Source: Microbacterium sp. LWS13-1.2 (lineage in GTDB: Bacteria > Actinomycetota > Actinomycetes > Actinomycetales > Microbacteriaceae). Taken from it: a stretch of 64,000 bases of DNA. The stretch spans positions 3,162,001 to 3,226,000 of the forward strand of contig NZ_CP151632.1 in assembly GCF_040144835.1 (NCBI RefSeq), read 5' to 3'. A program made the position numbers and the translations under genes. Shown piece after piece: positions 23,609 through 50,821 of this stretch; positions within the stretch are counted from its first letter, which is position 1; every line of letters begins with the position of its first letter. The notes beneath the pieces are model-generated. The model ran no database searches. It was not told where the DNA came from and saw only the letters and a program-made list of their open reading frames with translations.

Positions 23609-23617
23609 GGCACAGAA

Positions 23618-28185: not shown

Positions 28186-29202
28186 CTATGGACGATGACC
28201 CGGGGGCGCGGTCGATTGCCTGATGATCAGATCGGTGGCGACCTCGACACTTCTGGCGGGGCGGCCATCATTGCGTGTGGCAGAGAGCATTTGAACCGCG
28301 AGGCGAGACATCTCGGCGAGCGGCTGGCGAACAGTCGTGAGTGCTGGGTATGTCCACACTGACTCGGGGACGTCATCGAATCCGACGACGCTCAGGTCGT
28401 CTGGCACCTGGATTCCACGTTCCCGCGCTGCCTTCAACACCCCGAGCGCTTGTTCGTCGTTCCCGGCGAAGATGGCGGTGGGTGGCTTGGGTAGATCCAG
28501 CATGACTCGACCCAGCCGCTCACCAGATGTGACGGTGAAGTCCCCGTGCGCTTGTAGTGTCGCATTCGTCTCGATTCCCGCCGCGTTCAGTGCTGCCAGG
28601 TACGCACCGTGCCGCGCCTTGCTGAAGAGCGAATTGGCGCCACCCGCGATCATTCCGATCCGACGGTGACCGAGGTCAAGAAGATGCTCCATTGCTTTGA
28701 GTGCGCCGCTCCAGTTCGCCGTGCTGACCGTCGGGAAGCCGTCGAGCGACGGGAGACGTGGTTCGATGAGCACCACGGGTCGGCTCGAGCCGACATTCAT
28801 GACTGCCTCATGCACGGCCTCGTCAGGGGACACAACGATAGAGCCGACAAGCGCCGCGGGGTAGTCGCGATGAATCCGTCGCCAAGCATTCGGGTCTCCA
28901 ACGGATGAGTTGGTCACCAACAAGCTGGCGCCCGCTCGGCTTGCGCTCGCCTGAACCCCATCGAGGAGGCCGAGAAGGAACGGGCTTCGCAGCGACTTGA
29001 CAACGAGCTGGATGAGTTCGTCGCGCGAACCCGCCATCTGCGTGGTGCGCCGCACGTAGCCGACCTGTTGCACCGCGTCCTCGACCCGACCGCGGATCTC
29101 ATCTGAGACTCGGTGCCGCCCGGTGAGTACTTTCGAGACGGTCGCTACCGACACGCCGGCCGCATGTGCGACATCCAGGATCGTCTTTCGCGGAGATTCC
29201 AT
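28186..29202 (-). CDS. LacI-family transcriptional regulator (arabinofuranoside locus)
   Basis: A 338-aa LacI/GalR regulator starting at minus-strand ATG 29202 (MESPRKTILDVAHAAGVS), the HTH being residues 7-27 and the effector domain carrying TAIFAGNDEQALGVLKAA and LSVVGFDDVPESVW. The frame is open further upstream but that part overlaps the control region. It is divergent from an ABC importer/GH51 operon, with two palindromic sites between them, so it probably represses that operon and itself. Its 3' end nearly touches the IS remnant but the reading frame looks complete. Confidence 0.92.
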   Translation of the reverse strand: MESPRKTILDVAHAAGVSVATVSKVLTGRHRVSDEIRGRVEDAVQQVGYVRRTTQMAGSRDELIQLVVKSLRSPFLLGLLDGVQASASRAGASLLVTNSSVGDPNAWRRIHRDYPAALVGSIVVSPDEAVHEAVMNVGSSRPVVLIEPRLPSLDGFPTVSTANWSGALKAMEHLLDLGHRRIGMIAGGANSLFSKARHGAYLAALNAAGIETNATLQAHGDFTVTSGERLGRVMLDLPKPPTAIFAGNDEQALGVLKAARERGIQVPDDLSVVGFDDVPESVWTYPALTTVRQPLAEMSRLAVQMLSATRNDGRPARSVEVATDLIIRQSTAPPGHRP

Positions 29203-29248
29203 CGCCTGGGAGTTTCCTGTACTGGACACAGAGCGAGAGTAGCAGAAA

Positions 29249-29327
29249 ATTTCGGGAAATAGTGATTGACAGCAACCGCAACTTCCAGCAAGCTTGTGGA
29301 AGCCAAGAAACGAAAATTTCCGGAAAG
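29249..29327 (+). promoter_or_regulatory. divergent control region with two palindromic operators
   Basis: AAATTTCGGGAAAT (core ATTTCGGGAAAT, 29249-29260) and AATTTCCGGAAAG (core TTTCCGGAAA, a perfect palindrome, 29317-29326) are related LacI-type sites with CG-rich centres, 67 bp apart. Between them is a perfect -35 TTGACA (29266-29271) for the importer operon, with CAAGCT 17 bp later as a weak -10. The first site also lies just upstream of a minus-strand -10 TACTCT (29241-29236), so autorepression of the regulator is plausible. Confidence 0.7.
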
Positions 29328-29442
29328 TCATAGAGGTGTGGACCTGCGGGTTCTGCTTCGTTGAGTCCGCTGCTGATCGGATCTTGAAAGGGTGGCCTAC
29401 GCGCAGAGTCATCACCTGTCATCACGATCAAAGGAGAAGTGA

Positions 29443-30687
29443 ATGAGACACACAGCAGTTGTCGCCGCGGCTGCCATCGTGGCCTGCACGCTTGCGATCT
29501 CGGGCTGCACCGCGAGCACCGAGGGAACGGACGAGGCGCAGACCACGATCAGTTACCTGTCATGGGAGAACCAAGAGGTCATGACGCCGATCATTGCCGC
29601 TTTTGAGGAGGCGCATCCGGAAATCACAGTCGAGGTCTCGTACGCGCCACCGGTGCAGGAGTACATCACCGCACTCCAGACCCGACTTCTTTCGGGAACC
29701 GCGCCGGACGTGTTCATGATGGCGGCAGAGAACAAGACCCAATTGATCGACGGTGGCTTCACTCTCGACCTGGCTGACGACGAGTTCACCGCAAAGGTCC
29801 CCGAGTTCAATCGGACAACCTACGGACGTGATGGGGCGGTGTACGGACTGTCGCTTGCCTCGTGGGGTGCAGGAGTGATGTACAACAAAGATCTACTCGC
29901 CGAGGTCGGGTATGACGGGCCGCCCGACACGTGGGACGAGTTCCTCGTTCTGTGTGAAGAGCTCCAGGCAGCGGGGATCACCCCGTTCTACGAGGCCATC
30001 GACGGACTTCCGATTGTTCTGGGTGCAATGCTCGGTGCACACAATGCGTCGATCGATGGAGCGATGGATGACGAGATCTTCGGTGGCGGTTCATCTTTTG
30101 AGGAGCAATGGACTCCGATAGTCGAAGAGTATGTGCGCTTGTACTCGGAAGGCGGGGTAACGCGCGACGTCGTCGGTCTGTCGCGTGACGAGGCCCAGAA
30201 CGAGTTCTACGCTGGCCGTGTTGCGATGACCATCGGTCGTCCGTGGATCATGGCGGCGGCGCGAGAGGCCGGTGGACCTGAGCTGGACTTCGAGGTGGTG
30301 AAGGTTCCTGCGGTCACGGGACTTGAGCCCTATCTGGCCGGGGCCGCAAGCCCCGCTTTTGCGATCAACGCTGCATCGGAGCACGTTGATGCGGCGAAGG
30401 TCTTCCTCACTTGGTTGGCGTCGGCAGAGGGCGCTCAGGTGTTCTCGGAGGCCAGCGGCCAGATCACCGTGACCGCTGACTTCGAGCCAACGCTCGATGC
30501 GGCCTTGGACCCGGTCGTGCCTGACATCCGTGCCGGCAACCTCTACCTTCCGCAGATCGCGTGGCAACGCGACGAAGATGCCCTCAACCAAGAGGCCATC
30601 GCGCAGGTGCAGTTGCTGGTCGCCGGGACAATCACCCCACAGCAGTTCACCCAGGCACTCGATGCCAGGCTGGCAGCCGGCTCTTGA
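29443..30687 (+). CDS. ABC sugar transporter substrate-binding lipoprotein
   Basis: A 414-aa SBP family 1 protein with a signal sequence and lipobox LAISGC (Cys about residue 22). ISYLSWENQEVMTPIIAAFEEAHPEI and RLLSGTAPDVFMMAAENKTQ are typical. AAGGAG precedes ATG 29443. It heads an operon with two permeases and an intracellular GH51 arabinofuranosidase, so the ligand is probably an L-arabinofuranosyl oligosaccharide. Confidence 0.92.
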   Translation: MRHTAVVAAAAIVACTLAISGCTASTEGTDEAQTTISYLSWENQEVMTPIIAAFEEAHPEITVEVSYAPPVQEYITALQTRLLSGTAPDVFMMAAENKTQLIDGGFTLDLADDEFTAKVPEFNRTTYGRDGAVYGLSLASWGAGVMYNKDLLAEVGYDGPPDTWDEFLVLCEELQAAGITPFYEAIDGLPIVLGAMLGAHNASIDGAMDDEIFGGGSSFEEQWTPIVEEYVRLYSEGGVTRDVVGLSRDEAQNEFYAGRVAMTIGRPWIMAAAREAGGPELDFEVVKVPAVTGLEPYLAGAASPAFAINAASEHVDAAKVFLTWLASAEGAQVFSEASGQITVTADFEPTLDAALDPVVPDIRAGNLYLPQIAWQRDEDALNQEAIAQVQLLVAGTITPQQFTQALDARLAAGS

Positions 30688-30748
30688 TTTGTCGCCGAGG
30701 GGTGTGGATTGATTCGCACCCCTCGGTCATTCCGGGGAAAGGTTCGCA

Positions 30749-31693
30749 ATGTCGCAGGTGCGTGCGCCGAGGCTCACCAGCACGGCTCCCAGAAGGCGTC
30801 GGTCGTTAGGCGGCGGTTGGCGTCAGGTCACGATCAGTCAGGCATTCCTTGTGCCGATGATCATCGCCTTCATGGTGCTGTTCGTTGTGCCGTTGGCTCA
30901 ATCGGTCTATTGGAGCTTCACCGACTTCAATGGATACTCCACCGAGTCTGAGTTCATCGGCTGGGCGAACTACATGACTCTGTTCACCGACCAATCCCTA
31001 CTGGCTGGATTGAGTTTCACGCTCCTCTTTGCGATCGGCACTACGCTCGGGGTGACTGTTATTGCCATTCCGCTCGCTGTTGCCCTCAATCGTCCGTTCT
31101 TCGGCCGCAATTTCGCGCGCTCTGTGTTCTTCTTCCCTGCAGTGCCCAGCATGCTCGTTTTGGGTCTGGTGTGGACGTACATCTTGTCTCCACTGGGCAC
31201 GGGTGCCCTGAACAGCATCCTCAACACGGTCGCGGGTGTCGGGCCATTCCCTTGGCTCGCGGACCCGGCGCTGGCCCAGTTCTCGGTCATTATGGTCGGG
31301 ATATGGGGGCTGGCTGGCTGGCATGCAGTTCTGTACCTTGCGTACCTGCAATCGATCCCCGCCGAGTACTACGAGGTCTCCATGATCGACGGGGCCACCA
31401 GCTGGCAACAGTTCTGGGGGATCACTCTTCCGCTGCTAACTCCGGCGGTCGTGATCAGCCAGTTCTTGCTTCTGACGCATGGACTCAAGATCTTTGACCT
31501 TCCATTTGCGCTCACTGGCGGGGGACCCGGATTCGCTACCCGCACGATCACCCAGTCCATCATCATCACCGGCGTTGGGCAGGGTCGCTATGGTCTCGCT
31601 TCAGCTCTCGCGGTTGTCTTCACCGTGATTGTCGCGATCCTCGCGATGTCGCAACTCGCCCTTATGCGCCACCTGGAGAGGAGGGCGTCGTGA
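30749..31693 (+). CDS. ABC sugar transporter permease (MalF type)
   Basis: A 314-aa permease with about six spans and EAA loop YYEVSMIDGATSWQQFWGIT near residue 205. GGGGAAAGG lies upstream of ATG 30749. It partners the next gene; no ATPase is encoded nearby. Confidence 0.92.
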   Translation: MSQVRAPRLTSTAPRRRRSLGGGWRQVTISQAFLVPMIIAFMVLFVVPLAQSVYWSFTDFNGYSTESEFIGWANYMTLFTDQSLLAGLSFTLLFAIGTTLGVTVIAIPLAVALNRPFFGRNFARSVFFFPAVPSMLVLGLVWTYILSPLGTGALNSILNTVAGVGPFPWLADPALAQFSVIMVGIWGLAGWHAVLYLAYLQSIPAEYYEVSMIDGATSWQQFWGITLPLLTPAVVISQFLLLTHGLKIFDLPFALTGGGPGFATRTITQSIIITGVGQGRYGLASALAVVFTVIVAILAMSQLALMRHLERRAS

Positions 31694-32514
31694 GGATCAA
31701 GAAACAACGCCGCATCCTTCGTTCGGTGATCATGCTGTTGTTGGCATGCATCGTCGGGTTTCCGCTGTATTACGTCTTTGTCAACACCTTCAAGACGCAA
31801 CGCGAGGTCGTTGAGAACCCACTCGCATTGCCGCAGTCCTTCTACCTCGGCAATTACATCGACGTTGTCCGCGAAGTTCCCCTTGCGCAGAGCTTCGGCA
31901 ACACGCTTTATGTCACGGCAGTCGCTGTGACCGTGCAACTACTTATAGGGGCCATGGCCGCGTACGCCATGGTCATGCGGCGCTCCACGTTCAACCGAGT
32001 TCTGGAAGCAGCACTGCTCTTTGCGTTTGTCGTTCCCGCCCAATCGACGCTGATTCCGCTCTACCGGATCCTCGTCGGAGCTGGACTCGTCGATGACCTC
32101 AATGGACTCGTGGCGATGTACACCGCAGGTTCGGTCTTCTGTTACTTCCTCATTCAGGGTTATATGCGAACTCTTCCCTTTGAGGTGATCGAGGCCGCGC
32201 GGATCGATGGTGCGGGGCCTACTCGCATCTTTTGGTCGATCGTCTTGCCGCTGATTCGACCAATACTCGTGACGGTTGGCGTTTTTCAAACGATGTGGGT
32301 GTGGAACGACTTCGTCTTCCCGACGGTCTTCATCTCCTCCCCCAGCAAGCAGACCATCGTGCAGCAGATCTATTCGTCAGTGGGAGAGTTCGCGACGGAT
32401 TGGCCGTCGTTCATGACCCTTACTGTCATCGCCCTCATCCCGATGGTGATCTTCTTCATCTTCGCTCAGCGCCACATTGTGAGCGGGCTACTCGCCGGCT
32501 CGACGAAGGGCTGA
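31690..32514 (+). CDS. ABC sugar transporter permease (MalG type)
   Basis: A 274-aa permease with EAA loop FEVIEAARIDGAGPTRIFWS near residue 165. GTG 31690 overlaps the previous stop by four bases. It completes the importer and is followed after 68 nt by the arabinofuranosidase. Confidence 0.92.
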   Translation: MRIKKQRRILRSVIMLLLACIVGFPLYYVFVNTFKTQREVVENPLALPQSFYLGNYIDVVREVPLAQSFGNTLYVTAVAVTVQLLIGAMAAYAMVMRRSTFNRVLEAALLFAFVVPAQSTLIPLYRILVGAGLVDDLNGLVAMYTAGSVFCYFLIQGYMRTLPFEVIEAARIDGAGPTRIFWSIVLPLIRPILVTVGVFQTMWVWNDFVFPTVFISSPSKQTIVQQIYSSVGEFATDWPSFMTLTVIALIPMVIFFIFAQRHIVSGLLAGSTKG

Positions 32515-32582: not shown

Positions 32583-34139
32583 ATGACAACTACTCACACC
32601 CGCGCCGTCATCGACCTGGATGTGACCGGACCGACAATCAGTCGCCACCTCTACGGCCACTTCGCCGAGCACCTCGGACGCTGCATCTACGGGGGATTCT
32701 GGGTCGGCGAGGACTCTGAGGTCCCCAACGTTCGAGGCATCCGACTCGACATCGTGGAGGCGCTCAAGCAGATTCGCATTCCCAACCTGCGCTGGCCGGG
32801 AGGGTGTTTCGCGGACGAATATCACTGGAGGGACGGCATCGGGCCTCGCGGGGAGCGACCTCGAATGGTCAACTCCCACTGGGGTGACGTGGTCGAGGAC
32901 AATTCGTTCGGTACACACGAATTCCTTGACCTCTGCGATCTGCTCGGCGCCGCGCCCTACGTCAACGGCAACGTCGGCTCGGGAACCGTTCGCGAGATGA
33001 GCGAATGGGTCGAGTATCTGACGCGCGATGACGACTCACCCATGGCAAGCCTGCGGCGCTCCCACGGGCGCGACGAGGCATGGAGGATCCCCTTCTGGGG
33101 CATCGGAAATGAAGCCTGGGGATGTGGCGGCCGCATGCGTGACGAACACTACGCAGACCTCGCACGCCAGTACGCGACGTACCTGCGAGACCACGGAGAT
33201 AACAAGCTCTACAGGATTGCGGCCGGAGCACGTGACGACGACTACTCGTGGACGGAGACGCTGATGAAATCGATCAGCTGTAACGGCTGCGGGGATGGCC
33301 CGAACAGTCCCTACCAGGCGATCTCGTTCCACTTCTACACAATTCCCGTGCCCCGGGATTCCGTAGGAAGCGCCGTCGACTTCACTCTTGACGAGTACTA
33401 CTCCACGATGGTTGAGGCGCAGCGCGCTGAGGAGATCATTCGCCGACACTCCGCCGTCATGGACGTCTACGACCCCGCCAAGACCATTGGGTTGGTGTTC
33501 GACGAGTGGGGAACATGGCACGGCACAGAAGAAGGCACGAACCCGGGCTTCCTGTACCAGCAGAACACGATGCGCGACGCTCTGGTCGCGAGTGTTCACT
33601 TCGATGGGTTTCACGCGAACGCTGAGCGATTGGTCATGGCGAACATCGCACAGACTGTGAACGTCTTGCAGGCGATGGTGCTCACTGACCCTGAGACGAA
33701 CTCGATGATTCTTACCCCGACCTATCACGTGTTTGCTATGAACGTTGCCCACCACGACGCGGCATCGCTCCGCGTGCATTTGGAGTCGGACACAGCTCGT
33801 CGGATCGTCGGGGACAAAGAGTTGCGGACGATCTCGGCGTCGGCATCGACCAAGGACGGGAAGGCACTTGTTTCGCTTAGCAACCTTGACGCCGTAACCC
33901 CCGCAACCGTCGAGCTCGACCTGCGCGGACGTAAGGTGGCATCCGCTGAGGCATCCATCCTCACCGGGGACTCGCCCCACGCTCGCAACACTTTCGAGCA
34001 ACCCGAAGCGGTGGCGGTGCGGAAGCACGTCCTTGAAGTTGGAACGTCGGACTTCGGTACTCGGGTTGTGGTCAAGGTTCCGCCGCACTCCTATGTCACG
34101 GTCAGCCTCACGCTAGGAGACCATTCCGGAAGTTGGTGA
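32583..34139 (+). CDS. abfA: GH51 alpha-L-arabinofuranosidase
   Basis: A 518-aa intracellular glycosidase. The N-terminal signature is YGHFAEHLGRCIYGGFWVGE, with LRWPGGCFADEYHW; the acid/base is Glu177 in WGIGNEAWGCGG and the nucleophile Glu308 in LVFDEWGTWHG; the C-terminal beta-sandwich ends SYVTVSL. No signal peptide, and length fits the family. It releases terminal alpha-L-arabinofuranose from arabinan, arabinoxylan or arabinogalactan oligosaccharides brought in by the preceding importer. Confidence 0.95.
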   Translation: MTTTHTRAVIDLDVTGPTISRHLYGHFAEHLGRCIYGGFWVGEDSEVPNVRGIRLDIVEALKQIRIPNLRWPGGCFADEYHWRDGIGPRGERPRMVNSHWGDVVEDNSFGTHEFLDLCDLLGAAPYVNGNVGSGTVREMSEWVEYLTRDDDSPMASLRRSHGRDEAWRIPFWGIGNEAWGCGGRMRDEHYADLARQYATYLRDHGDNKLYRIAAGARDDDYSWTETLMKSISCNGCGDGPNSPYQAISFHFYTIPVPRDSVGSAVDFTLDEYYSTMVEAQRAEEIIRRHSAVMDVYDPAKTIGLVFDEWGTWHGTEEGTNPGFLYQQNTMRDALVASVHFDGFHANAERLVMANIAQTVNVLQAMVLTDPETNSMILTPTYHVFAMNVAHHDAASLRVHLESDTARRIVGDKELRTISASASTKDGKALVSLSNLDAVTPATVELDLRGRKVASAEASILTGDSPHARNTFEQPEAVAVRKHVLEVGTSDFGTRVVVKVPPHSYVTVSLTLGDHSGSW

Positions 34140-34227: not shown

Positions 34228-34265
34228 TTGGCAACGTTGTACAACGACGCTACTCTGAAATTCAG
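34228..34265 (+). promoter_or_regulatory. promoter and operator-like palindromes before the GH3 operon
   Basis: TTGGCA (34228-34233) and TACTCT (34251-34256) are spaced by 17 bp and match actinobacterial -35/-10 elements; the start would be near 34263. CAACGTTG (34232-34239), a perfect palindrome with central CG, overlaps the -35, and CTGAAATTCAG (34255-34265) covers the -10/start. No regulator gene lies in the operon, so an unlinked LacI protein may act here. Confidence 0.6.
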
Positions 34266-34304
34266 AATTGTTGTTATAGAGAACAAATGCGCGGAAGGTC
34301 GAGG

Positions 34305-36644
34305 ATGACACAGCCGACGGACGTCGTGGCCGCACGCGTGTGGGCAGAACCCACCACCGACATCGACACTCGTGTCGAGGCACTGCTGGCGGAGATGACG
34401 GATGCCGAGAAGCTCGCGCAACTCGGAAGCTTCTGGGCCGACAAGCGGGAATCGACCCAGATCATCGCCCCCATGCAGGACGTGCTCTCGAAGGGCCGCC
34501 CGCCGTTCGACGAGGCGAGCGCCGAGGGCATCGGTCATCTGACGCGCGTGTTCGGCACGACGCCGGTGAGCGCCCGTGACGGTATGGCGAAGGTGCACGA
34601 GTCGCAGCAGCACCTCATCACGAGCACGCGTCTCGGCATCCCGGCGATCGTGCACGAGGAGTGCCTGACCGGCTTCACGACGCTCGGGGCGACGGTGTAT
34701 CCGGCCTCGATGGCGTGGGCGGCGACGTTCGATGCCCCGCTCGTGCGCGAGATGGCCCACGCGATCGGCTCCGACATGGCCGCGGTCGGCGTGCACCACG
34801 GTCTCTCGCCGGTGCTCGACGTCGTCACGGACTACCGCTGGGGGCGCGTCGAAGAGACGCTTGGCGAAGACCCGTACGTCGTGGGCACGCTGGCGACCGC
34901 CTACGTCGAGGGACTCCAGGGCGCCGGCATCATCGCCACCCTCAAGCACTTCGCCGGCCACGCCACCTCGCGCGGCGGTCGCAACCATGCGCCGGTGTCG
35001 ATGGGCGAGCGCGAGCTGCGCGACCTGGTGCTGCCGCCGTTCGAGATGGCGGTGCGCATGGGCGGCGCGAAGAGCGTGATGAATTCGTACACCGAGCTCG
35101 ACCGGGTTCCCGCGGCGGCCGATCGGTGGCTCCTCACCGACCTGCTGCGCGGCGAGTGGGGCTTCGACGGCACTGTCGTGTCGGATTACTGGGCGGTCGC
35201 GTTCCTCAAGTCCAAGCACGGCGTGGCCGGGACGATGGCGGATGCCGGGCGCCTGGCGCTGCACGCAGGCATCGACGTCGAACTGCCCGACATCGCGGCC
35301 TACCGCCTCCTCGCCGAGGCCGACCCCGACCCGGCGCGCACGCGGGACGACATCGACACCGCGGTGCGGCGGGTGCTGCGGCAGAAGATCGAGGTCGGCC
35401 TGCTCGACGACGGCTGGACTCCGGCGGAGCCCGCCGACGTGGACCTCGACAGCGCACGCAACAGGGTGATCGCCCGCCGCCTCGCCGAGGAGTCGATCGT
35501 CCTCCTCGACAACCGCCGCGGCATCCTTCCCCTCGCCGAGGACACGCGGCGCATCGCCGTGATCGGGCCGTGCGCGGACGACCCTCGCGCGATGATGGGC
35601 GCGTACTCCTACCCGATCCACGTGATGCCGCGTCATCCCGAGCTGGGCCTCGGCATCGACGCGACGACCATCCCCGACGCACTGTGCGCGGCGCTTCCCG
35701 GTGCTGAGGTCGTCGTCGAGCAGGGGTGTCCGCTCATCGAGCCTGCGCATGAGCGGCAGATCGCGGTCGCGGTCGCGGCCGCAGCATCCAGCGACGTCGT
35801 CGTCGCTGTCGTGGGCGATCGCGCGGGGATGTTCGGCAAGGGCACGTCGGGGGAGGGATCCGACGCCCCGACCCTCGACCTGCCCGGCGACCAGCGCCGC
35901 CTCGTCGACGCGCTCCTCGCGACCGGGAAGCCCCTCGTGCTGCTCGTGCTGTCGGGTCGCCCGTACGCGCTCGGCGCGCACACCCAGCGGGCCGCGGCGA
36001 TCGTGCAGTCGTTCATGCCGGGTGTCGAGGGTGCGGCGGCCATTGCGGGCGTCCTCACGGGTGCGGTCAACCCCAGCGGGCACCTGCCGGTGCAGATCCC
36101 GCGCACCAACGGGGCGCTGCCGCACACCTACCTCGCCCCGCCGCTCGGCCAGGACGGCGATCGCATCAGCAACCTGTCGATCGCGCCTGCCTTCCCGTTC
36201 GGGCACGGTCTGTCGTACACGACGTTCGAGCTCGGAGACGTCCGACTCGACCGGGATGAGATCCCGAACGACGGGACCGTCATGGCCTCGGTGACCGTCA
36301 CCAACACGGGCGATCGCGCCGGCGCGACCGTCGTGCAGCTCTACAGCGCCGACCCCGTCGCGCAGGTCACGCGTCCGGTGCAGCAACTGGTGGGCTATGC
36401 CCGGGTGCCGCTCGAGCCGGGGGACTCGGCATCCGTCTCGTTCGAGCTGCACGCCGATCGCTTCTCGTTCACGGGAGTCGCGCGCCGCCGCATTGTCGAG
36501 CCCGGTGTCGTGCAACTGACGGCGGGACTGTCGCTCACCGACGTGACAGCGTCGGCCGACCTCATGATCCTGGGGCCGGAGCGCGCGGTCCAGAATCCCG
36601 CGCTGGCGACCGGGGTCCGCATCGAACGAGAGGATGCCGCGTGA
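34305..36644 (+). CDS. GH3 family glycosidase (beta-glucosidase/beta-xylosidase type)
   Basis: A 779-aa intracellular GH3 enzyme. N-terminal barrel motifs include DYRWGRVEETLGEDPYVVG, IIATLKHFAGHATSRGGR and nucleophile Asp294 in GTVVSDYWAV; the alpha/beta sandwich (AEESIVLLDNRRGILPLA, RIAVIGPCADDPRAMMGAY) and fibronectin-III-like C-terminus (FPFGHGLSYTTFELGDV) follow. ATG 34305 has AAGG upstream; ATG 34287 is an alternative. It starts a run of six genes that all overlap by four bases, so its sugar should feed the downstream isomerase, kinase and oxidase; the linkage is not predictable. Confidence 0.9.
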   Translation: MTQPTDVVAARVWAEPTTDIDTRVEALLAEMTDAEKLAQLGSFWADKRESTQIIAPMQDVLSKGRPPFDEASAEGIGHLTRVFGTTPVSARDGMAKVHESQQHLITSTRLGIPAIVHEECLTGFTTLGATVYPASMAWAATFDAPLVREMAHAIGSDMAAVGVHHGLSPVLDVVTDYRWGRVEETLGEDPYVVGTLATAYVEGLQGAGIIATLKHFAGHATSRGGRNHAPVSMGERELRDLVLPPFEMAVRMGGAKSVMNSYTELDRVPAAADRWLLTDLLRGEWGFDGTVVSDYWAVAFLKSKHGVAGTMADAGRLALHAGIDVELPDIAAYRLLAEADPDPARTRDDIDTAVRRVLRQKIEVGLLDDGWTPAEPADVDLDSARNRVIARRLAEESIVLLDNRRGILPLAEDTRRIAVIGPCADDPRAMMGAYSYPIHVMPRHPELGLGIDATTIPDALCAALPGAEVVVEQGCPLIEPAHERQIAVAVAAAASSDVVVAVVGDRAGMFGKGTSGEGSDAPTLDLPGDQRRLVDALLATGKPLVLLVLSGRPYALGAHTQRAAAIVQSFMPGVEGAAAIAGVLTGAVNPSGHLPVQIPRTNGALPHTYLAPPLGQDGDRISNLSIAPAFPFGHGLSYTTFELGDVRLDRDEIPNDGTVMASVTVTNTGDRAGATVVQLYSADPVAQVTRPVQQLVGYARVPLEPGDSASVSFELHADRFSFTGVARRRIVEPGVVQLTAGLSLTDVTASADLMILGPERAVQNPALATGVRIEREDAA

Positions 36645-37627
36645 CCGGCCTCACCGCCGACGACTGGCCGATCGCGGCCGCCGCCCTGCCGTTCGCCGGC
36701 CGCACGCCCGACGGGCGCACGATCGCGGCCGCCGGACCCGAGGAATGGGAGCGCACCCTGACCGAGATCGTCGACGCGGGCTTCGACCGCGTCGACCTCA
36801 CCGACTCATGGCTGCGCGTCGCCGACCTGGACGAACCGGGTCTGCGCGATCTCACCGCCGTCGCGTCCGATGCGGGAGTCGTGCCGACCTCGATCTCGGC
36901 GATCCGCTGCAGCGTCATCGACCACGCCCACGGCGCCGAGAACCTCGCGTACAGCCACAGGACGCTGGATGCCGCGGCCGCCCTCGGCATCGAGACCGTG
37001 TCGTTCGGCCTGCACCAGGCGCTGACGCCGCAGCAGCAGGAGCAGCTGTGGTTCTGGACGGTCAAGGGCCACCACGACGACCCCGCCGACTGGGACCTCG
37101 CGGTCAGCAGACTGCAGGAGCTGGGCCGCCACGCGGCCGAGCTCGGCATTCTGGTCTCGCTCGAGATGTACGAGGACACGTTCCTCGGCACCGCCGACTC
37201 GGCCGTGCGCCTCGTCGAAGGCATCGGCTTGGACAATGTCGGGCTGAACCCCGACATCGGCAATCTCGTGCGACTGCACCAGCCGATCGAGCCCTGGTGG
37301 CAGCTCGTCGAGAAGACGCTCCCCTACGCCAACTTCTGGCACGTGAAGAACTACGCGCGCGATGAAGACACCGCGCGCGGCGAGTACTTCGCGGTGCCGG
37401 CGCCCATGCAGTACGGGCTGATCGACTACCGCCGCGCATTCCGGTACGCGATCGAGCACGGGTTCCAGGGCGTCATCTGCGTCGAGAACTACGGCGGCGA
37501 CGGGCTGAGCGTGTGCGCCGACAACCGCGATTACCTCCGCCGGCACGTGCTGCCCAAGCGCGAGGGCTACGCGCTCGGGACCAGCAGGGTGCGCCAGCCT
37601 CGCCACGCGCAGGGCGGTTCACGATGA
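36641..37627 (+). CDS. TIM-barrel sugar isomerase/epimerase
   Basis: A 328-aa xylose-isomerase-like TIM-barrel protein. Probable metal-site segments are VSLEMYEDTFLG (Glu near 174), VGLNPDIGNLVRL (Asp near 205), NFWHVKNYARDE (His near 238) and GVICVENYGGDG (Glu near 282). GTG 36641 overlaps the GH3 stop. Together with the DhaK-DhaL kinase and RpiB-type enzyme it resembles the L-erythrulose-1-phosphate isomerase step of mycobacterial tetritol pathways, but it may act on a different ketose. Confidence 0.85.
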   Translation: MTGLTADDWPIAAAALPFAGRTPDGRTIAAAGPEEWERTLTEIVDAGFDRVDLTDSWLRVADLDEPGLRDLTAVASDAGVVPTSISAIRCSVIDHAHGAENLAYSHRTLDAAAALGIETVSFGLHQALTPQQQEQLWFWTVKGHHDDPADWDLAVSRLQELGRHAAELGILVSLEMYEDTFLGTADSAVRLVEGIGLDNVGLNPDIGNLVRLHQPIEPWWQLVEKTLPYANFWHVKNYARDEDTARGEYFAVPAPMQYGLIDYRRAFRYAIEHGFQGVICVENYGGDGLSVCADNRDYLRRHVLPKREGYALGTSRVRQPRHAQGGSR

Positions 37628-39336
37628 CCCGCATCGCGAACGACCCCGCCGATTTCGTGTCCCAGGCCCTCGCCGGATTCGTCGCCGCACACGGCGATGT
37701 CGTTCGCGCCGTGGATGGCGGCGTGGTGCGTGCCGTTCCCGCAGCCCGCGGGTCGGTCGCCCTCGTCGTTGGCGGCGGCTCGGGACACTACCCGGCGTTT
37801 GCCGGCGTGGTAGGTGCCGGCATGGCTGCCGGGGCGGTATGCGGCAACATCTTCACGTCGCCGTCGGCGGGGCAGGCGTATCGAGTCGCGAAGGCGGCGC
37901 ATCGCGGCGGAGGAGTGCTGTTCAGCTTCGGCAACTACGCCGGTGACGTGCTGCACTTCGGCGAGGCCGAGGCGCGCCTGCGCGACGAGGGCATCGATGC
38001 CCGCACGGTGCTGTGCACCGACGACATCGCGAGCGCACCGCTCGACGAGATCGATCGGCGCCGCGGCATCGCCGGCGACTTCGTCGTCTTCAAGATCGCC
38101 GGTGCTGCGGCCGAGCGCGGCGACTCGATCGACGAGGTCGAACGCCTCGCGCGGCTCGCGAACCACCGCACGCGCACCCTCGGCGTCGCGTTCGGCGGCT
38201 GCACCTTCCCGGGAGCCGGCGAGCCGCTGTTCACCGTCCCCGACGGCATGATGTCGATCGGCCTCGGCATCCACGGCGAACCCGGCATTCGCGACGTGCC
38301 GCGCACCGACTCCGCCACGCTCGCCGCGACGCTCGTCGGCGCGCTCCTCGCCGACGTGCCCGAGCAGCGCGGCGCTCGCGTCGTTGTGATCGTCAACGGC
38401 CTGGGCACCGTGAAGTATGAGGAGCTCTTCGTGCTCTACGGCGATGTCGCCGCACTGCTCGAGGCCGCGGGTGTCACCGTCGTGCAGCCCGAGGTCGGCG
38501 AGCTCGTGACGAGTCTCGACATGGCCGGGGCATCCGTCACCCTCTTCTGGCTCGACGACGAGCTCGAGCCACTGTGGGCGGCGCCCGCGTATACGCCCGC
38601 CTACCGCAAGGGCTCGGTCGAGGTCGCGGCCGCAACGGACGCCGGCGACGAGGTGTTCGAGGCAGGCGAGGCCGAGCAGCTGCCCGAAGCGTCGGAGTGG
38701 TCGAAAACGGCGGCCACCCTGGCGCTCGGATACCTCGACGCGGCACGCGCGACCCTCCACGAGCACGAGGCGGAGCTCGGCCGCATCGACGCGATCGCGG
38801 GCGACGGCGACCACGGCGTCGGCATGCGCACCGGCATCGACGCGGCCGGCGAGGCGGCGGACCCCGACGCCGGGTTGCGCGCGATGCTCGCCGCCGCCGG
38901 CGATGCATGGAGCGAGCGCGCGGGCGGCACCTCCGGCGCGCTGTGGGGCTCGATTCTCGTCGCGGTCGGGAGGGCTCTCGACCGCGAGGGCGCCGACCCG
39001 TGTACCGCTGTGGCCGATGCCGCGCGGGCCGCGCTCGACGCGGTGACCTCGCGCGGCGGCGCGCGCGTGGGCGACAAGACAATGGTCGACGCGCTCGATC
39101 CCTTCGTCCGGACCCTCGACCAGCGCCTCGCCGCCGGCGATGCGCTCCCCGATGCGCTCGACGCGGCCGCCCGCGCCGCGACCGACGCGGCCGCTGCCAC
39201 CTCTGCGTTGCGGCCGGCCCTCGGCCGCGCCCGTCCGCTGGCCGAGAAGAGCCTCGGACACCCCGACGCCGGCGCCACGTCGTTGGCGCTGATCGCCACG
39301 GCGATCTCCGAAACCACGCGAAAGGAAGCTCGATGA
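37624..39336 (+). CDS. DhaK-DhaL fusion kinase (dihydroxyacetone/tetrulose kinase family)
   Basis: A 570-aa ATP-dependent kinase. The DhaK half (1-330) has [30 protein letters not shown] and the covalent-substrate His217 in LGIHGEPGI; the DhaL half (from about 365) has [26 protein letters not shown] and [13 protein letters not shown]. The family includes dihydroxyacetone, L-erythrulose and D-erythrulose kinases; the neighbours favour a ketotetrose or related short ketose. ATG 37624 overlaps the previous stop (ATGA). Confidence 0.92.
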
Positions 39337-39854
39337 CCGACCCCCTGCGCATCGTCGTCGGAAGCGACGATGCGGGCTACGAGTACAAGACGGCGCTGAA
39401 GGCCCTGCTGGAGGCCGACCCGCGGGTCGCTGCGGTCTCCGACGTCGGGGTCCGCGGCGACGAGCACACCGACTATCCGCACGTCGCCGTCGAAGCCGCG
39501 CGACGTGTGGCTGCGGGCGACGCTGACCGGGCGCTGCTCGTCTGCGGCACGGGGCTCGGGGTGGCGATCTCGGCCAACAAGGTCCCCGGCATCCGTGCCG
39601 TCACCGCGCACGACAGCTACTCCGTGGAGCGCTCGGTGCTGAGCAACAACGCCCAGGTGCTCACGATGGGGCAGCGCGTCATCGGCCTCGAGCTGGCCAA
39701 ACGGCTCGTCTCGGAGTGGCTCGGCTACCGGTTCGACCCCGCGTCTTCATCGGCGTCGAAGGTCGCCGCCATCGAGTCGTACGACCGCGGCGCAGCCGAC
39801 CAGAACGCCGCGGAACAGCAGACCGCTGACCAGAACACGGAGGCAAGCTCATGA
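39333..39854 (+). CDS. RpiB/LacAB-type sugar phosphate isomerase
   Basis: A 173-aa isomerase with [18 protein letters not shown], active-site Cys71 in [16 protein letters not shown] and [20 protein letters not shown]. This family interconverts aldose and ketose phosphates (ribose-5-P, allose-6-P, D-erythrose-4-P/erythrulose-4-P). Following a DhaK-type kinase, a tetrulose-4-phosphate isomerase is a good guess. The last 25 residues are Gln/Ala-rich and unusual for the family. ATG 39333 overlaps the kinase stop. Confidence 0.9.
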
Positions 39855-40867
39855 CCCGGATCGCCGTCGTCGGCAGTGGCTACATGGGTGGCGGCATGGC
39901 GCAGGTCTTCGCGCTGGCCGGCCACGATGTCGTGATCTCGGACGTCACCGCCGAGATCGCCGCCTCCAACCTGGAGCGCATCCGTATCGAGACCTCCGAG
40001 TTCGAAGAGCAGGCACTCTTTCCCGCGGGCGCGACCGAGCTGATCACTGCCAATATCTCGGCGGCGGAGAGCATCGAGGATGCGGTGGCGGATGCCGAGT
40101 TCATCGAAGAGGCGGTGCCCGAGCGGATCGAGATCAAGCACGCGACGCTGCGTCGCATCTCGCATGCGAATCCGACTGCGGTCATCGGCAGCAACACCTC
40201 GACCATCTCGATCACCAAGCTCGCCGAGGCCGTCGAGAATCCCGAGCGTTTCCTCGGCGTGCATTTCTCGAATCCGGCGCCGTTCGTGCCCGGCGTGGAG
40301 CTCATCCCGCACCTCACGACCGCCGAGAGCGCGATCGTCGCCACCGAAGAACTCGTCGCCGGCAGCGGCAAGATCGGCGCCCGCGTGAGGGACGCGACCG
40401 GATTCGTGCTGAACCGGCTGCAGTACGCGCTCTTCCACGAAGCCACGCAGCTCGTCGACGAAGGGGTCGCGACACCGGAAGACATCGACGCGATCGTGCG
40501 TTCGACCTTCGGCTTCCGCCTGCCGTTCTTTGGCCCGTTCGCGATCGCCGACATGGCCGGGCTCGACGTCTACGCCTTCTGCTACGCCTCGCTGCAGGGC
40601 GACTTCCCCGAGCGCTTCGCGACCCCGGCCATCCTCTCGGAGCGCATCGAGCGCGGCGAACTGGGCACGAAGACCGGCGGCGGCTTCCGCGCCATCGACC
40701 CGAAACGCGTCCCCGAGCTGGTCGCCTACCGCAACCGGGCCTACGCCAAGATGACGGAGCTCCTCGACGAGCTCGGTCCCTCGCCGTTCGACGCGCCGGC
40801 CGCGGCGTCCGGCCAGGAACCCGCCGCGGCGCCCGCTTCCGAGCCGGTCGCGGAGCCTTCGCGATGA
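39851..40867 (+). CDS. 3-hydroxyacyl-CoA dehydrogenase-like NAD-dependent enzyme
   Basis: A 338-aa protein with Rossmann motif [39 protein letters not shown] and [20 protein letters not shown], the pattern of the short 3-hydroxyacyl-CoA dehydrogenase/L-gulonate 3-dehydrogenase group. In a sugar operon a sugar-acid (for example tetronate or pentonate) 3-dehydrogenase is more likely than a fatty acid role. The last 35 residues are an Ala/Pro/Glu-rich tail. It overlaps both neighbours by four bases. Confidence 0.85.
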
Positions 40868-42141
40868 GCATCGCCGGGCCGACGGCGGCCATGACGCGCA
40901 ACTGGGCCTCCAACGTGGTCTACGGCGCGGCGAGCGTCGTCGCGCCCGGCTCTCTCGGTGAGCTCGCCGACGTGCTGGGCTCGGCCGGGCGCGTCAAGGC
41001 GCTCGGCAGCCGCCACTGCTTCAATACGATCGCCGACACCGACGGCGTGCACATCGTCTCGAGCGCCCTTCCCGCCGAGATGAGCATCGACAGCGGGCGC
41101 CGCGTCGTCCGGGCGTCGGCGGGGATGCGGTACGGCGATGTCGCCCCCGCGTTGCACCGTGAGGGGTGGGCGCTGGCGAACCTCGCATCGCTGCCGCACA
41201 TCTCGCTCGCCGGCGCGGTCGCGACCGGAACCCACGGCTCGGGCGATGCGGTGGGCTCCCTCGCGTCCGCCGTCGCGGGCGTGGAGCTCATGACCGCGGA
41301 TGGCGAGGTGCGCACGTACCGCCGCGGCGACGCCGACTTCGAGGGCGTCATCGTCTCGCTCGGGGCGCTCGGCATCGTCACCGCGCTCGAGCTCGATCTC
41401 GTCCCCGCCTTCGAGGTCACGCAGACGGTGTACGAGCGTCTGCCGCTGGATGCGGTGCTCGACGATCTCGACGCCGTCACCGGCCTCGGCTACAGCGTGT
41501 CGATGTTCCACACCTGGCGCGATCCCGAGGTCGTCGACCAGCTGTGGGTGAAGCGTCGCGCAGACGCGCCCGGCGGCCCGCCCGAGCGCGTGCTGGGTGC
41601 GGCGAAGGCCTCGGGCAAGAGGCATCCGCTCCCCGACGTCTCGGCCGAGAGCTGCACCGACCAGCTCGGCGAGCCGGGGGAGTGGTATGCCCGGCTGCCG
41701 CACTTCAAGCTCGAGTTCACGCCGTCCAACGGCGAGGAACTGCAGTCGGAGTTCCTCGTGCCTCGGCGCAACGCCGTCGCGGCGATCGCGACCATGCGCG
41801 ACCTCGCCGGTCGCGTGGCGCCGCTGCTGCAGGTGTGTGAGCTGCGCACCGTCGCGCGCGACGACCTGTGGCTGTCGCCGGCGTACGGCACCGACGTGCT
41901 CGGCATCCACTTCACCTGGAAGCCCGATCAGCCGGGCGTCGAGCTACTGCTGCCGCTCATCGAACAGGCCCTCGAGCCGCTCGACGCGCGCCCGCACTGG
42001 GGCAAGCTGTTCACGCTCCATGGTGCAGAGGAGCGGATGCCGCGGCTCTATCCGCGCTGGAATGACTTCGTCGCGCTGCGCGAGCGCCTCGATCCGCGCG
42101 GGGTGTTCCGAAACGACTACCTGACGCAGCTCGGGCTCTGA
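40864..42141 (+). CDS. aldO: FAD-linked alditol oxidase
   Basis: A 425-aa flavoprotein similar throughout to Streptomyces alditol oxidase, which oxidises xylitol, sorbitol and shorter polyols at C1 with O2, giving aldose and H2O2. Seen: the His that binds FAD in KALGSRHCFNTIAD (His51), NLASLPHISLAGAVATGTHGSG, RLPHFKLEFTPSNGEELQSE and HWGKLFTLH. No signal peptide. Last gene of the coupled six-gene operon, so a polyol or polyhydroxy aldehyde is probably an entry substrate. ATG 40864 overlaps the previous stop. Confidence 0.92.
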   Translation: MSIAGPTAAMTRNWASNVVYGAASVVAPGSLGELADVLGSAGRVKALGSRHCFNTIADTDGVHIVSSALPAEMSIDSGRRVVRASAGMRYGDVAPALHREGWALANLASLPHISLAGAVATGTHGSGDAVGSLASAVAGVELMTADGEVRTYRRGDADFEGVIVSLGALGIVTALELDLVPAFEVTQTVYERLPLDAVLDDLDAVTGLGYSVSMFHTWRDPEVVDQLWVKRRADAPGGPPERVLGAAKASGKRHPLPDVSAESCTDQLGEPGEWYARLPHFKLEFTPSNGEELQSEFLVPRRNAVAAIATMRDLAGRVAPLLQVCELRTVARDDLWLSPAYGTDVLGIHFTWKPDQPGVELLLPLIEQALEPLDARPHWGKLFTLHGAEERMPRLYPRWNDFVALRERLDPRGVFRNDYLTQLGL

Positions 42142-42206: not shown

Positions 42207-43475
42207 CTAGGCGAAGTCACACACCTGTGCGTCTCGGAACCGCCGGCGAATAGGGCAGGTCGGTCTCGACGAAGGCCGTCGCCAGCTCAGCTGGCGCCAG
42301 GTCACCGCGGAGGGGGAGGATGCGATACAGATGGGTGAACGGTCCCTTGGCAGGGGTGTTGCTGTACTTGTCCGGTCGGGTGACCACATCCCAGTTGCCG
42401 CCGTGCATCCCCTCTTGAGCGGCGTCGACCCGGACGACCGTTCCCCGGGACTCGGGGACCTCGTGCCAGTGCCGTCGGTCGGCGAGCTCTGCCGGTGCGT
42501 GAGGCTGAGCGTTGAAGAACATGCTGCCGCCGGCGACGAACAGCACGCCGCTCCCGGTGTCGTCGACGAGGGCCGCCCACCGAGTGTCGGCCTTGTTCGC
42601 GGAGTCCTGCGGGCGGCTGTATCGCGTGACCTGATCGGCGACCGACCCGGCGTACCGGCCGAAGAAAGCAGAAGTGCGACGGTCGGCTGTCGATTCGTGC
42701 GGCCCACGCCCGTACCACTAAATGGCACTGAGCTCCGGGATGAGGGTCAAAGTCGTGCCGATGACCTGCGGGTTGGGCGCTCCGGTGTCGGGGGGCAAAG
42801 GTCGACGACAGCACATCGAGTTGGCCGTTGCCGTAGACGGTGTAGGTGATCGACTGTGATGAGGTCGTGATCTGAAAGCTCGGCCGGAAAGGCACCTTTG
42901 TGGTGACGGTGCCTCGGACGATGACGCGCACCCCACCGGGTATCGACTTCATCTCGACATCTTCAATGGCCCAGTCCTCACCGACGCCCCGCCATGGCTG
43001 CGACGGCTCGGGACGATTCACCCGGATGTCGGGGATGGCCAGTTCCGGATCGTTCGGGGTCCGCCAGTAATTCGGCGTCAACTCACTCACCAGCAGTTCC
43101 CGGTCGTCATACTGCAGCGACGTCAGACGGCCGGTGATCCGGGAGATCTCAACGGAGAATCGGTCTCCGGCCACGCGAACGGACGTCGCGCTGTCGGCAA
43201 CGGTCAGATGTGACAGGCCCGCGGTCTCCAACGGCAGCCGGTCGAGAGGGTCCGCCACCGTCGACGTCTTCGCCGGCGAAATCGAGCAGACGCGACGCGG
43301 GATTCGAGGACCAGTGGAACTTCCATTCCCCATCGAGGCTGAGACGGTAGGGCGAATCGCGGCGATCCGCGCGCATCGCCTCGTCCAGCGTCTCGTAGGG
43401 CATGAGAGAGGCGTGCGTGGGCTCGGTGCCCCATTCGTAGGCTGCAGGGTCGTTCCACTCCGGCGTGGTCATCAT
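42207..43475 (-). pseudogene. lacZ: beta-galactosidase (GH2, LacZ type), catalytic core deleted
   Basis: From ATG 43475 the first about 62 residues are typical LacZ N-terminus (EPTHASLMPYETLDEAM, SPYRLSLDGEWKFHWSSNP). Near 43280 the sequence jumps to another frame and to the LacZ C-terminal domain (AGLSHLTVADSATSVRV, LLVSELTPNYWRTPNDPE). About 650 residues, including the whole catalytic barrel, are missing. Further damage follows: a frameshift near 42790, an in-frame TAG at 42718-42720 before WYGRGPHE, and further frame changes leading to the end (DKYSNTPAKGPFTHLYRILP) near 42300. The enzyme cannot function. Confidence 0.9.
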
Positions 43476-46131: not shown

Positions 46132-46174
46132 CGCCAAGCAAGCGTCCCTGCTCGCTCCGCCGGCACTGTTGCGG

Positions 46175-48268
46175 TCAGCGTGCCTCGAGGTCGACCGAGG
46201 CCGATACGTACCCGGAAGCCGACGCCGTCACGGTGATTCGTCCGGCTGAGGTCGGACGGATCACGGCCAGCGCGCGGCCGTCGTGGAGTCGATGCTGCGC
46301 ATCGGCGAAGGATTCCTCGGTGACCATCGCCGCGCTCCCGAATCCCTGGAGTGATCCAGGACCGTCGATCCGAAGTTCGACTTCGACGTCTGCATCGGTG
46401 GCCCTGACACCGTCGGCATCCCCGATCTCGATCACGACGTAGCCCAGATCTCGACCATCGACGGCGAGCGCCGCGTGTTCGGCTGTCAGTCTCAGGCCGT
46501 ACACGATCTCTCGGTAGTACGAGGCAGGGCGACGCTCGCCGGTGATGTCGATGTCGCCAGAACCCGCGAGCAAGAAGGGGTAGGGGCCGAGTGCGCCGTC
46601 GCCCGGTGGATCGTCCGCGTAGTGCATGCGCCCGAGGCCCGGCTCACCCAGATAGTCCCACCCCGTCCAGGTGAAGTCGCCGATCACCTGCGGGTTGGCG
46701 CGTACAAGTGCCCAGAGTCGGTCTATGTGCGTGGGGAAGGTCTCAGACCCGACGATCACGCGATTCGGAAGCAGCTCGCGGTCCAGTTCGTACCGGCAGT
46801 CAAGATAGTTCATTCCCGCGATATCGGGGGCACCGTGGGCCTCCTCAGTGAGCGCGGTCACCGCGCCGGTGACGCCGAGCGCACTCATCCGATCCTCGAG
46901 GCTCGACTCGCGGGCGTTGATCTCGTCGACCGGATGCAGCGGCGCCCCGCCCAGCAATTCCGGATCGACCTCCACGGCCGCATCCATCACGAACAGCGCG
47001 CCATTGACGGCGGCCGTGACATACCGGGTCGGATCCAAGCGGCGGACCTCGGCAGACATGCTCCTCGATAGGTCGGAGCCTGACCGGGTTGCCGCCTCCG
47101 GGATCTCGTTGCCGATTGAGTAGATGATGACACTCGGATGGTTGCGGTCCTTGGTCACCATCGCCTCGAGATCACGCTGCCACCAGTCCGTGAACTGATC
47201 CGCGCCGTCGTCGGGCGACTTCGATCTGGTCCAGACGTCGGTGAGCTCATCCATGACGAGCACTCCCAGACGATCACAGGCATCGAGCATCGCTCGACTC
47301 ATCGGTTGATGAGCGCTGCGGATTGCATTGAAACCGGCGGACTTGAGCAGGGCGACCCGGCGCGCCTCCGCGCGATCGAAGGTCGCGGCGCCGATCACCC
47401 CGTTGTCGGCGTGCACGCAAGCGCCGCGCAACTCGACCGAGTCGCCGTTGATGCGCAGGCCGCGGGCCGCATCGAGGTGAAGTGTCCGGATCCCGAACTG
47501 CACCTCGCTCCGGTCGGGGTCGATGTCACCGGTACCCGAGCTGAGGCTCGAGTCGACGCGGTAGAGGTCGGGCGTTTCGACGGACCACCGCCGTGGGGCC
47601 ATTACCAGGATGCGCTGGCTGACTTGGGCGCTGCCGCCGGGCGGGACGCTCACCCTCGTGCGATCGACGCCGACGACCTCGCCTGAGGGATCCACGATGC
47701 TCGTCTCGAGCCGCCGCACGGCCGGGATCGTCTCGAGGTTTCGCACCGTGGTCACGACCTGTACGACCGACGCCTCGGCGTCATGCTCGGGGGTCGTCAC
47801 GACGATGCCATCGAGCGGGACATGGACGCGGGGCGCGATTGCCAGGTGGACCGGCCGGACGATGCCGCCCCCGGTGTACCACCTCGCATCCCGGTGGGCA
47901 CGCGCCTCGACGATGATCTCGTTGTCGCCGCCGTAACGCAGGTACCGGTCGAGTTCAACGGTGATGGTGGAGGTTCCCGACGGTCGCCGAATCGCGAGGT
48001 CGCCGTTCACGAAGACGGCGGCCGACCGGTAGACGGATTCGAATTCGAGCATCACATGACGGTCCCGCCAGTGCGCTGGTGCCGGGAGCCTCGCGCGGTA
48101 CACCCAGTCGCCGCCCGGGAAGTACCCGGTGGCCTGGAGGGCCGGGTCGTCGAGTCGGCTCGAACCCAGCACAGCATCATGCGGGAGCACGACCGACTCG
48201 AACTCGGTATGACCAGCGGAATACCGCTCTCGGAACTCCCACGAGTGGGGGAAGAGCACTCGCTGCAT
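46175..48268 (-). CDS. GH2 family glycosidase (beta-galactosidase type)
   Basis: A 697-aa cytoplasmic GH2 enzyme: jelly-roll (LPHDAVLGSSRLDDPALQAT, YFPGGDWVYRARLP), Ig-like domain, barrel with VELRGACVHADNGVIGAATF, acid/base Glu388 in IIYSIGNEIPE and nucleophile Glu509 in VIVGSETFPTH, then WDYLGEPGLGR and a C-terminal sandwich. It is intact, unlike the LacZ-type gene at 42207, and may replace it. Convergent with GH95 and divergent from fuconate dehydratase. Galactosidase is the commonest activity of relatives with this ending; glucuronidase or others are possible. Confidence 0.88.
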   Translation of the reverse strand: MQRVLFPHSWEFRERYSAGHTEFESVVLPHDAVLGSSRLDDPALQATGYFPGGDWVYRARLPAPAHWRDRHVMLEFESVYRSAAVFVNGDLAIRRPSGTSTITVELDRYLRYGGDNEIIVEARAHRDARWYTGGGIVRPVHLAIAPRVHVPLDGIVVTTPEHDAEASVVQVVTTVRNLETIPAVRRLETSIVDPSGEVVGVDRTRVSVPPGGSAQVSQRILVMAPRRWSVETPDLYRVDSSLSSGTGDIDPDRSEVQFGIRTLHLDAARGLRINGDSVELRGACVHADNGVIGAATFDRAEARRVALLKSAGFNAIRSAHQPMSRAMLDACDRLGVLVMDELTDVWTRSKSPDDGADQFTDWWQRDLEAMVTKDRNHPSVIIYSIGNEIPEAATRSGSDLSRSMSAEVRRLDPTRYVTAAVNGALFVMDAAVEVDPELLGGAPLHPVDEINARESSLEDRMSALGVTGAVTALTEEAHGAPDIAGMNYLDCRYELDRELLPNRVIVGSETFPTHIDRLWALVRANPQVIGDFTWTGWDYLGEPGLGRMHYADDPPGDGALGPYPFLLAGSGDIDITGERRPASYYREIVYGLRLTAEHAALAVDGRDLGYVVIEIGDADGVRATDADVEVELRIDGPGSLQGFGSAAMVTEESFADAQHRLHDGRALAVIRPTSAGRITVTASASGYVSASVDLEAR

Positions 48269-48297
48269 CTGGAACTGCTGCCTCTCGGTTCGCCGTC

Positions 48298-50807: not shown

Positions 50808-50821
50808 AAAGGAACACCCTG

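Follow-up and report, generated by a model that had tools for sequence, protein, structure and literature searches.

A six-gene Microbacterium operon joining a TIM barrel-dehydrogenase pair to a GH3 glycosidase and an alditol-oxidase-type enzyme, a probable variant of known tetrulose-phosphate routes

Organization of the six-gene operon

The 64,000-nucleotide stretch of Microbacterium sp. LWS13-1.2 analysed here (contig NZ_CP151632.1, positions 3,162,001 to 3,226,000 of the forward strand; hereafter, the window) contains a run of six genes at 34305-42141. These genes encode, in order, a GH3 glycosidase, a triosephosphate-isomerase-fold (TIM) barrel, a DhaK-DhaL fusion kinase (DhaKL), an RpiB-type isomerase, a 3-hydroxyacyl-CoA-dehydrogenase-family enzyme (HCDH), and a flavin adenine dinucleotide (FAD)-dependent oxidase. 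The features of the operon and of its upstream region are as follows:

34235..34246: perfect 12-bp palindrome CGTTGTACAACG, 5' of the GH3 gene; LacI-operator-like (label by eye)
34267..34288: inverted repeat ATTGTT-N10-AACAAAT, probable operator/promoter element of the operon
34305..36644, +: GH3 glycosidase of the beta-xylosidase/alpha-L-arabinosidase type, 779 aa
36641..37627, +: xylose-isomerase-like TIM barrel (PF01261), 328 aa; proposed 3-oxo-aldonate decarboxylase
37624..39336, +: DhaK-DhaL fusion kinase (NF011049, 722 bits); proposed (D-)erythrulose kinase
39333..39854, +: RpiB/DerI-type isomerase; proposed erythrulose-4-phosphate isomerase
39851..40867, +: HCDH (PF02737 and PF00725); proposed aldonate 3-dehydrogenase
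40864..42141, +: FAD-dependent alditol-oxidase-type enzyme (VAO/ALO family); proposed to oxidise a sugar or polyol to supply the aldonate

Profile scans identified GH3, AP_endonuc_2 (PF01261), Dak1 plus Dak2, LacAB_rpiB, 3HCDH_N plus 3HCDH, and FAD_binding_4 plus ALO domains in the six products, in agreement with the coordinates and families given by the original prediction, which had been made from the letters alone. The 4-nt overlap that it claimed for every junction was likewise confirmed (five of five; GTGA once and ATGA four times). With alternative starts allowed, such an overlap is possible in 14 of the 36 same-strand neighbour pairs of the window and in 9 of the 31 pairs outside the operon; a single overlap is ordinary here, and five consecutive ones mark a tight unit. 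An identical gene order was found in M. yannicii PS01 (L069), M. timonense (L071), and M. salsuginis (L072), and the same order with no adjoining GH3 gene in Microbacterium sp. HD4P20 (L070; L and G numbers denote loci and genomes of the comparison). Because of this recurrence, the gene order is regarded as real and conserved. The operon is probably catabolic.

The palindrome occurs as a single exact copy in the 64 kb and is also present 5' of the GH3 gene in L034/L072. It was considered as the mark of a LacI regulon and rejected, as one exact copy and four copies with two or fewer mismatches (compared with 1.44 expected) show no regulon in the window. Counterparts of the inverted repeat lie 5' of the GH3 genes of L033/L069, L034, and L071, all with the FAD gene, and of L035, which has no FAD gene and one change in the repeat; none was found in L036 and L074 with the GH3 starts used there. 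The GH3 start at 34305 was preferred because the alternative start at 34287 falls within the inverted repeat. The palindrome and the repeat support a predicted transcription of the operon from 5' of the GH3 gene.

The GH3 product has all of the GH3 N, C, and Fn3-like domains. It scores 985 bits against NF052329, below the curated cut-off of 1050, and its closest solved relatives are the beta-xylosidases 7zb3 and 8c7f. The 4.33-Mb genome contains five GH3 genes with E <= 1e-80 to the window GH3 (itself counted), in addition to AraA, an actinobacterial XylA, and two Dak1 genes. D-xylose and L-arabinose were considered as obvious substrates, an assumption weakened by the presence of XylA with a further GH3 gene of this type ~6 kb away, and of AraA. 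The FAD enzyme, with FAD_binding_4 and ALO domains, is homologous over its full length to 8ot8 (435 bits) and AldO (2vfr, 398 bits) and keeps what we take to be the covalent-FAD and active-site residues of AldO, including the covalent-FAD His (H51, S109, E326, R328, H349, T351, and K381). Unlike these two enzymes, it is coupled to a GH3 glycosidase and a predicted acid-type pathway.

Conserved core and relation to known routes

The barrel was detected at E <= 1e-40 in 32 of the 149 genomes of a genus sample. Loci were compared in a named-genome set (70 loci, of which 62 with a called barrel were kept and 8 without one left out) and a genus set (33 loci, 31 kept and 2 left out); gene counts rest on a codon-usage-based gene caller, and they are not independent, as the sets overlap and their rows are related. 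Among the 62 named-genome loci, HCDH is present in 54, DhaKL in 48, RpiB in 39, a triosephosphate-isomerase-like (TPI-like) gene in 23, GH3 in 16, a GH51-type gene in 15, a GntP permease in 13, and the FAD gene in 4, and a major facilitator superfamily (MFS) transporter nearest the D-galactonate-transporter model (under cut-off) was found in 10. The 31 genus loci contain HCDH in 28 and RpiB in 25 cases. The barrel and HCDH are a conserved pair recurring in many actinobacteria; with DhaKL and RpiB they make up a conserved core, to which GH3 and the FAD oxidase are added in particular clades. GH3 homologues near the barrel were found in Microbacterium, Promicromonospora, Nesterenkonia, and a Streptomyces plasmid. 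Domain scans detected no polyol dehydrogenase family among the six operon genes, and the FAD oxidase is present instead; the original prediction that it takes the place of such a dehydrogenase is not supported, because the GH3 and FAD genes are clade-specific (16 and 4 of the 62 loci) and the FAD enzyme is thus no simple stand-in. No description of the barrel-HCDH pair was met in the open-licence PMC literature, in searches that were not worded for the pair and left subscription papers mostly outside.

The longest alignment of HCDH with a solved structure (3-305) is to 4om8, which acts on a free pyridine carboxylate, with a score equal to that of the acyl-CoA enzyme 3mog, and none of its 23 NCBIfam matches reaches the cut-off. 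The FHMPC dehydrogenase (4om8) and 3f3s/3ado, which we take to be L-gulonate 3-dehydrogenase (lambda-crystallin), belong like the window HCDH to the 3HCDH family and act on free acids, but differ from it in substrate and partner barrel. Eleven loci of the two sets have no HCDH (8 of 62 and 3 of 31); PdxA is present in two of them (L047 and L099) and a 3-hydroxyisobutyrate-dehydrogenase-like gene in a third (L104). Beyond the two sets, the same replacements were seen at L066 and L102 (PdxA, in L102 4.2 kb off and on the other strand) and on the Streptomyces plasmid L068 (3-hydroxyisobutyrate-dehydrogenase-like gene), and the four PdxA rows are in separate places of the barrel tree. The HCDH, PdxA, and 3-hydroxyisobutyrate dehydrogenase families all oxidise beta-hydroxy acids or their esters.

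Two known routes resemble the operon. A mycobacterial erythritol/threitol pathway was reportedly described by Huang et al. in 2015 and is also treated in PMC12780249. In this pathway, DhaKL and RpiB-type enzymes lead towards erythrose-4-phosphate. The original prediction had likened the isomerase, kinase, and RpiB-type enzyme to this route; the kinase and RpiB-type enzyme are indeed shared, but the likeness fails for the isomerase, since the window barrel is a PF01261 protein, not LerI, which is a triosephosphate-isomerase-type protein, and the only PF00121 gene of the genome (triosephosphate isomerase) lies outside the window. Loci related to the window also have acid-linked neighbours, and the view that the operon is not the described erythritol/threitol route is supported.

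The second is a pathway from D-apionate to L-erythrulose, reportedly described by Carter et al. in 2018, with ApnO, OiaC, LerK, LerI, and DerI. PF16896 (PGDH_C), presumably a signature of the apionate oxidoisomerase ApnO, was found in 6 of the 296 genomes searched; a profile search did not find it in this genome, an absence that fits either an aldonate or an apiose origin of the intermediate (see below). The PF16896 clusters L148 and L145 contain genes for an MFS transporter, DhaKL, RpiB, a short PF01261 protein, and a PGDH_C protein; L145 adds a TPI-like gene, and L148 adds a short-chain dehydrogenase/reductase (SDR), a lactonase, and an AldO homologue on the opposite strand. Among 120 listed relatives of the L145 OiaC, at least two are named 3-oxo-isoapionate decarboxylase. 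The operon is similar to this pathway in the proposed beta-keto-acid logic, the PF01261 barrel, the DhaKL kinase, and the RpiB isomerase. In contrast, it has a 3HCDH instead of a PGDH_C dehydrogenase, its barrel is of a subfamily distant from OiaC (264-282 aa), LerI is without a counterpart (this genome has no second TPI-like gene, and L148 also has none in the fetched stretch), and GH3 and the AldO-type oxidase are added.

The window kinase is 55-57% and the window RpiB 71-72% identical to those of L148 and L145, and because of this resemblance to actinobacterial D-apionate clusters, a tetrulose-phosphate end of the operon is likely. RpiB scores 199 bits against TIGR02133 (RPI_actino), above the cut-off of 168, and 160 bits against NF051858 (DerI), below the cut-off of 240. 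The original proposal of a tetrulose-type end joined to GH3, an HCDH-like enzyme, and an FAD enzyme of the AldO type is supported, and the operon is probably a variant of known tetrulose-phosphate routes in which the barrel-HCDH pair is joined to GH3 and an AldO-type oxidase.

In a kinase tree of 76 rows, the window kinase falls in a supported set of 28 rows, including one remote kinase from a 7-kb contig (L164), and no row of the set has a TPI-like neighbour in its stretch. Of three ApnO loci, two have a TPI-like neighbour beside the kinase; the third, L148, has none in the fetched stretch. D-erythrulose-4-phosphate needs an RpiB-type step alone, and L-erythrulose-1-phosphate needs LerI as well; because the kinase set is without TPI-like neighbours, this hints at D-erythrulose as the kinase substrate in the window clade. 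A clean division of loci into D and L types by the TPI-like gene is doubtful, as the kinase tree supports it and the barrel tree does so less.

Proposed route and alternative explanations

Some loci related to the window contain sugar-acid permeases, a lactonase-like gene, PdxA, or a Gfo/Idh gene, and these point to an acid rather than a polyol intermediate. GntP is also present in a Streptomyces plasmid cluster, and Tct genes in S. meliloti and L047; the gene after HCDH in L103 is similar to the gluconolactonase-type protein of L148, and in M. ulmi the position of the window FAD gene, after HCDH, is occupied by a Gfo/Idh gene. We give roughly an even chance to the reading that the six genes specify a route in which a glycoside-bound sugar is oxidised and decarboxylated to end as erythrose-4-phosphate, and for which we infer the substrates, the decarboxylation step, and the stereochemistry. 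In this route, GH3 would free a sugar from what looks like a plant-type glycoside, the FAD enzyme would oxidise it (or the matching polyol) to an aldonate, and HCDH with nicotinamide adenine dinucleotide would convert the C3 hydroxyl to give a 3-oxo-aldonate, a beta-keto acid, which the metal-dependent barrel would decarboxylate to a tetrulose. DhaKL would then phosphorylate the tetrulose and the RpiB-type isomerase would yield erythrose-4-phosphate; in M. ulmi, the Gfo/Idh enzyme may take the sugar-oxidation role of the FAD enzyme. C3 oxidation of a linear aldonate is proposed because HCDH, PdxA, and 3-hydroxyisobutyrate dehydrogenases oxidise beta-hydroxy acids and apionate has no oxidisable C3 hydroxyl, and a 3-oxo-pentonate that loses CO2 becomes erythrulose, a product consistent with the kinase and isomerase. 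Among substrate classes, linear pentonates are the likeliest, in the window clade one of the D-series giving D-erythrulose.

A broader proposal, which we advance tentatively as falling somewhat short of an even chance, is that the barrel and HCDH are an aldonate 3-dehydrogenase/decarboxylase pair that converts pentonates to erythrulose independently of ApnO/OiaC. The pair would occur in several actinobacterial families, and the barrel with PdxA on Sinorhizobium megaplasmids, the dehydrogenase having been swapped at least twice for unrelated beta-hydroxy-acid dehydrogenases and the pair extended by GH3 and an AldO-type oxidase in a Microbacterium clade. If true, a large barrel family (at least 2,456 homologues at E <= 0.001, and a solved M. 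smegmatis structure, 5tnv, whose title says only xylose-isomerase-like) could be named as catabolic beta-keto-acid decarboxylases, and a route that trims five-carbon sugar acids to erythrose-4-phosphate would be added.

Several observations weigh against the proposed route to erythrose-4-phosphate by oxidation and decarboxylation. The OiaC profile gives 12.8-35.4 bits over 101 barrel rows (26.2 for the window barrel), compared with 404-520 bits on OiaC rows, which are partly in the profile itself, and it gives 18.2 bits on another barrel-like protein (L048 7800-8723); the latter scores 23.4 bits on the barrel profile, and OiaC 15.7-28.6. This similarity is at the superfamily level only and was rejected as proof of decarboxylation. 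The structural neighbours of the barrel after 5tnv are mostly ketose 3-epimerases; since they are epimerase-like and the OiaC similarity is weak, decarboxylation is proposed from gene context. Neither PdxA nor the 3-hydroxyisobutyrate-dehydrogenase-like gene was found in 8 of the 11 loci without HCDH, and the nucleoside-linked loci L097 and L118 do not fit. AldO favours polyols over aldoses, and the FAD gene was found at four of the 62 loci and the M. ulmi-type Gfo/Idh gene in one genome (other C1 oxidases were not searched for). As for D-erythrulose, ten kinases outside the set of the window kinase likewise have no TPI-like neighbour, the TPI label changes 15 times on the barrel tree compared with 6 on the kinase tree, and GH3 and a TPI-like gene occur together at six Nesterenkonia loci.

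The epimerase-like neighbours would suit a different explanation, in which the barrel acts on tetruloses as a 3-epimerase (L- to D-erythrulose), some other polyol or acid is the product or substrate of HCDH, the operon serves a short polyol or its glycoside, and the FAD enzyme is a true alditol oxidase. We consider it unlikely, as HCDH occurs without DhaKL in the stretch at 12 of the 62 and 5 of the 31 barrel loci (some stretches being short), so that the association of the barrel with HCDH is no weaker than that with the kinase, and as a TPI-like gene accompanies the barrel at 23 of the 62 loci.

The kinase and RpiB families shared with the two ApnO clusters, a 44% AldO homologue adjoining the ApnO cluster of genome G034, and the Gfo/Idh gene in M. 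ulmi (apiose dehydrogenase is a Gfo/Idh enzyme) are what a variant D-apiose route would lead one to expect, with GH3 as an apiosidase, the FAD enzyme producing apionate, and HCDH and the barrel replacing ApnO and OiaC to give L-erythrulose. Chemically, however, apionate carries a tertiary alcohol at C3, which neither HCDH nor PdxA could oxidise, and this genome has one PF00121 gene. Furthermore, G034 (Microbacterium) contains an ApnO/OiaC cluster plus a barrel-HCDH cluster (L056), and Nesterenkonia sp. F has the two pairs side by side (L119/L163). Because both pairs coexist there, the barrel-HCDH pair is probably a parallel feeder and not just a substitute for ApnO/OiaC, and we regard the apiose variant as decidedly unlikely.

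Two further explanations retain oxidation and decarboxylation and change the chain length. A C4 acid (threonate or erythronate) would give dihydroxyacetone after C3 oxidation, with DhaKL as an ordinary dihydroxyacetone kinase; the chemistry is the same as that proposed for pentonates, DhaKL and TPI are canonical triose families, and DUF1537-type and 3-hydroxyisobutyrate-dehydrogenase-like genes are near some loci, but RpiB, present at 39 of 62 and 25 of 31 loci and 71-72% identical to that of two ApnO clusters, is left unexplained, making this account very unlikely. A hexonate would yield a pentulose, with RpiB as a true ribose-5-phosphate isomerase, as its scores relative to the RPI_actino and DerI cut-offs and the GntP permeases would allow; given the kinship of kinase and RpiB with the apionate clusters, and as we know of no DhaK-type pentulose kinase, this is highly improbable.

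Surroundings of the operon and related loci

An operon for a GH51 enzyme and an ATP-binding cassette (ABC) importer, with a divergent LacI gene, is located upstream of the six-gene operon:

28186..29415, -: LacI-family regulator (domain scans), divergent from the importer
29443..32514, +: sugar ABC importer; binding protein scanned, two permeases judged from sequence
32583..34139, +: GH51 alpha-L-arabinofuranosidase (2vrk, 594 bits)

The gene adjoining the operon at 42302-43333 (-) has a weak Bgal_small_N match (43 bits) and is possibly aldose-epimerase-like. Further glycan genes, for GH2, GH95, melibiase (PF02065), two MR_MLE enolase-superfamily proteins, MFS, and LacI, are present at 20631-26461 and 43762-56759 of the window, and an integrase-core fragment at 27145-27924.

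The module has a carboxylate-uptake version in L066 (S. meliloti pSymB, 7634-14640), composed of GntR, PdxA, Tct, barrel, and DhaKL-like genes, the last of which is broken into two overlapping open reading frames in that record. L062 (6126-16410) and related Microbacterium loci have DhaKL, RpiB, TPI-like, GntR, barrel, and HCDH genes in one island, which also holds SDR, MFS, 3-hydroxyisobutyrate-dehydrogenase-like, and DUF1537-type genes, a link to tetronate-type genes. In L118 (9974-10939) and L097 (5113-6114), the barrel lies without HCDH among genes for a PnrA-type nucleoside importer and adenosine deaminase; the L118 barrel has DhaKL and RpiB (gene families assigned by clustering), and L097 was domain-scanned. 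In two Microbacterium genomes, directly 5' of the six- and five-gene operons of L034 (2302-6328) and L070 (5853-9880), respectively, is a vanHAX-like set of D-2-hydroxyacid dehydrogenase, D-Ala-D-Ala ligase, D-Ala-D-Ala dipeptidase, and Mur-ligase-domain genes, identified in L070 by clustering with L034.

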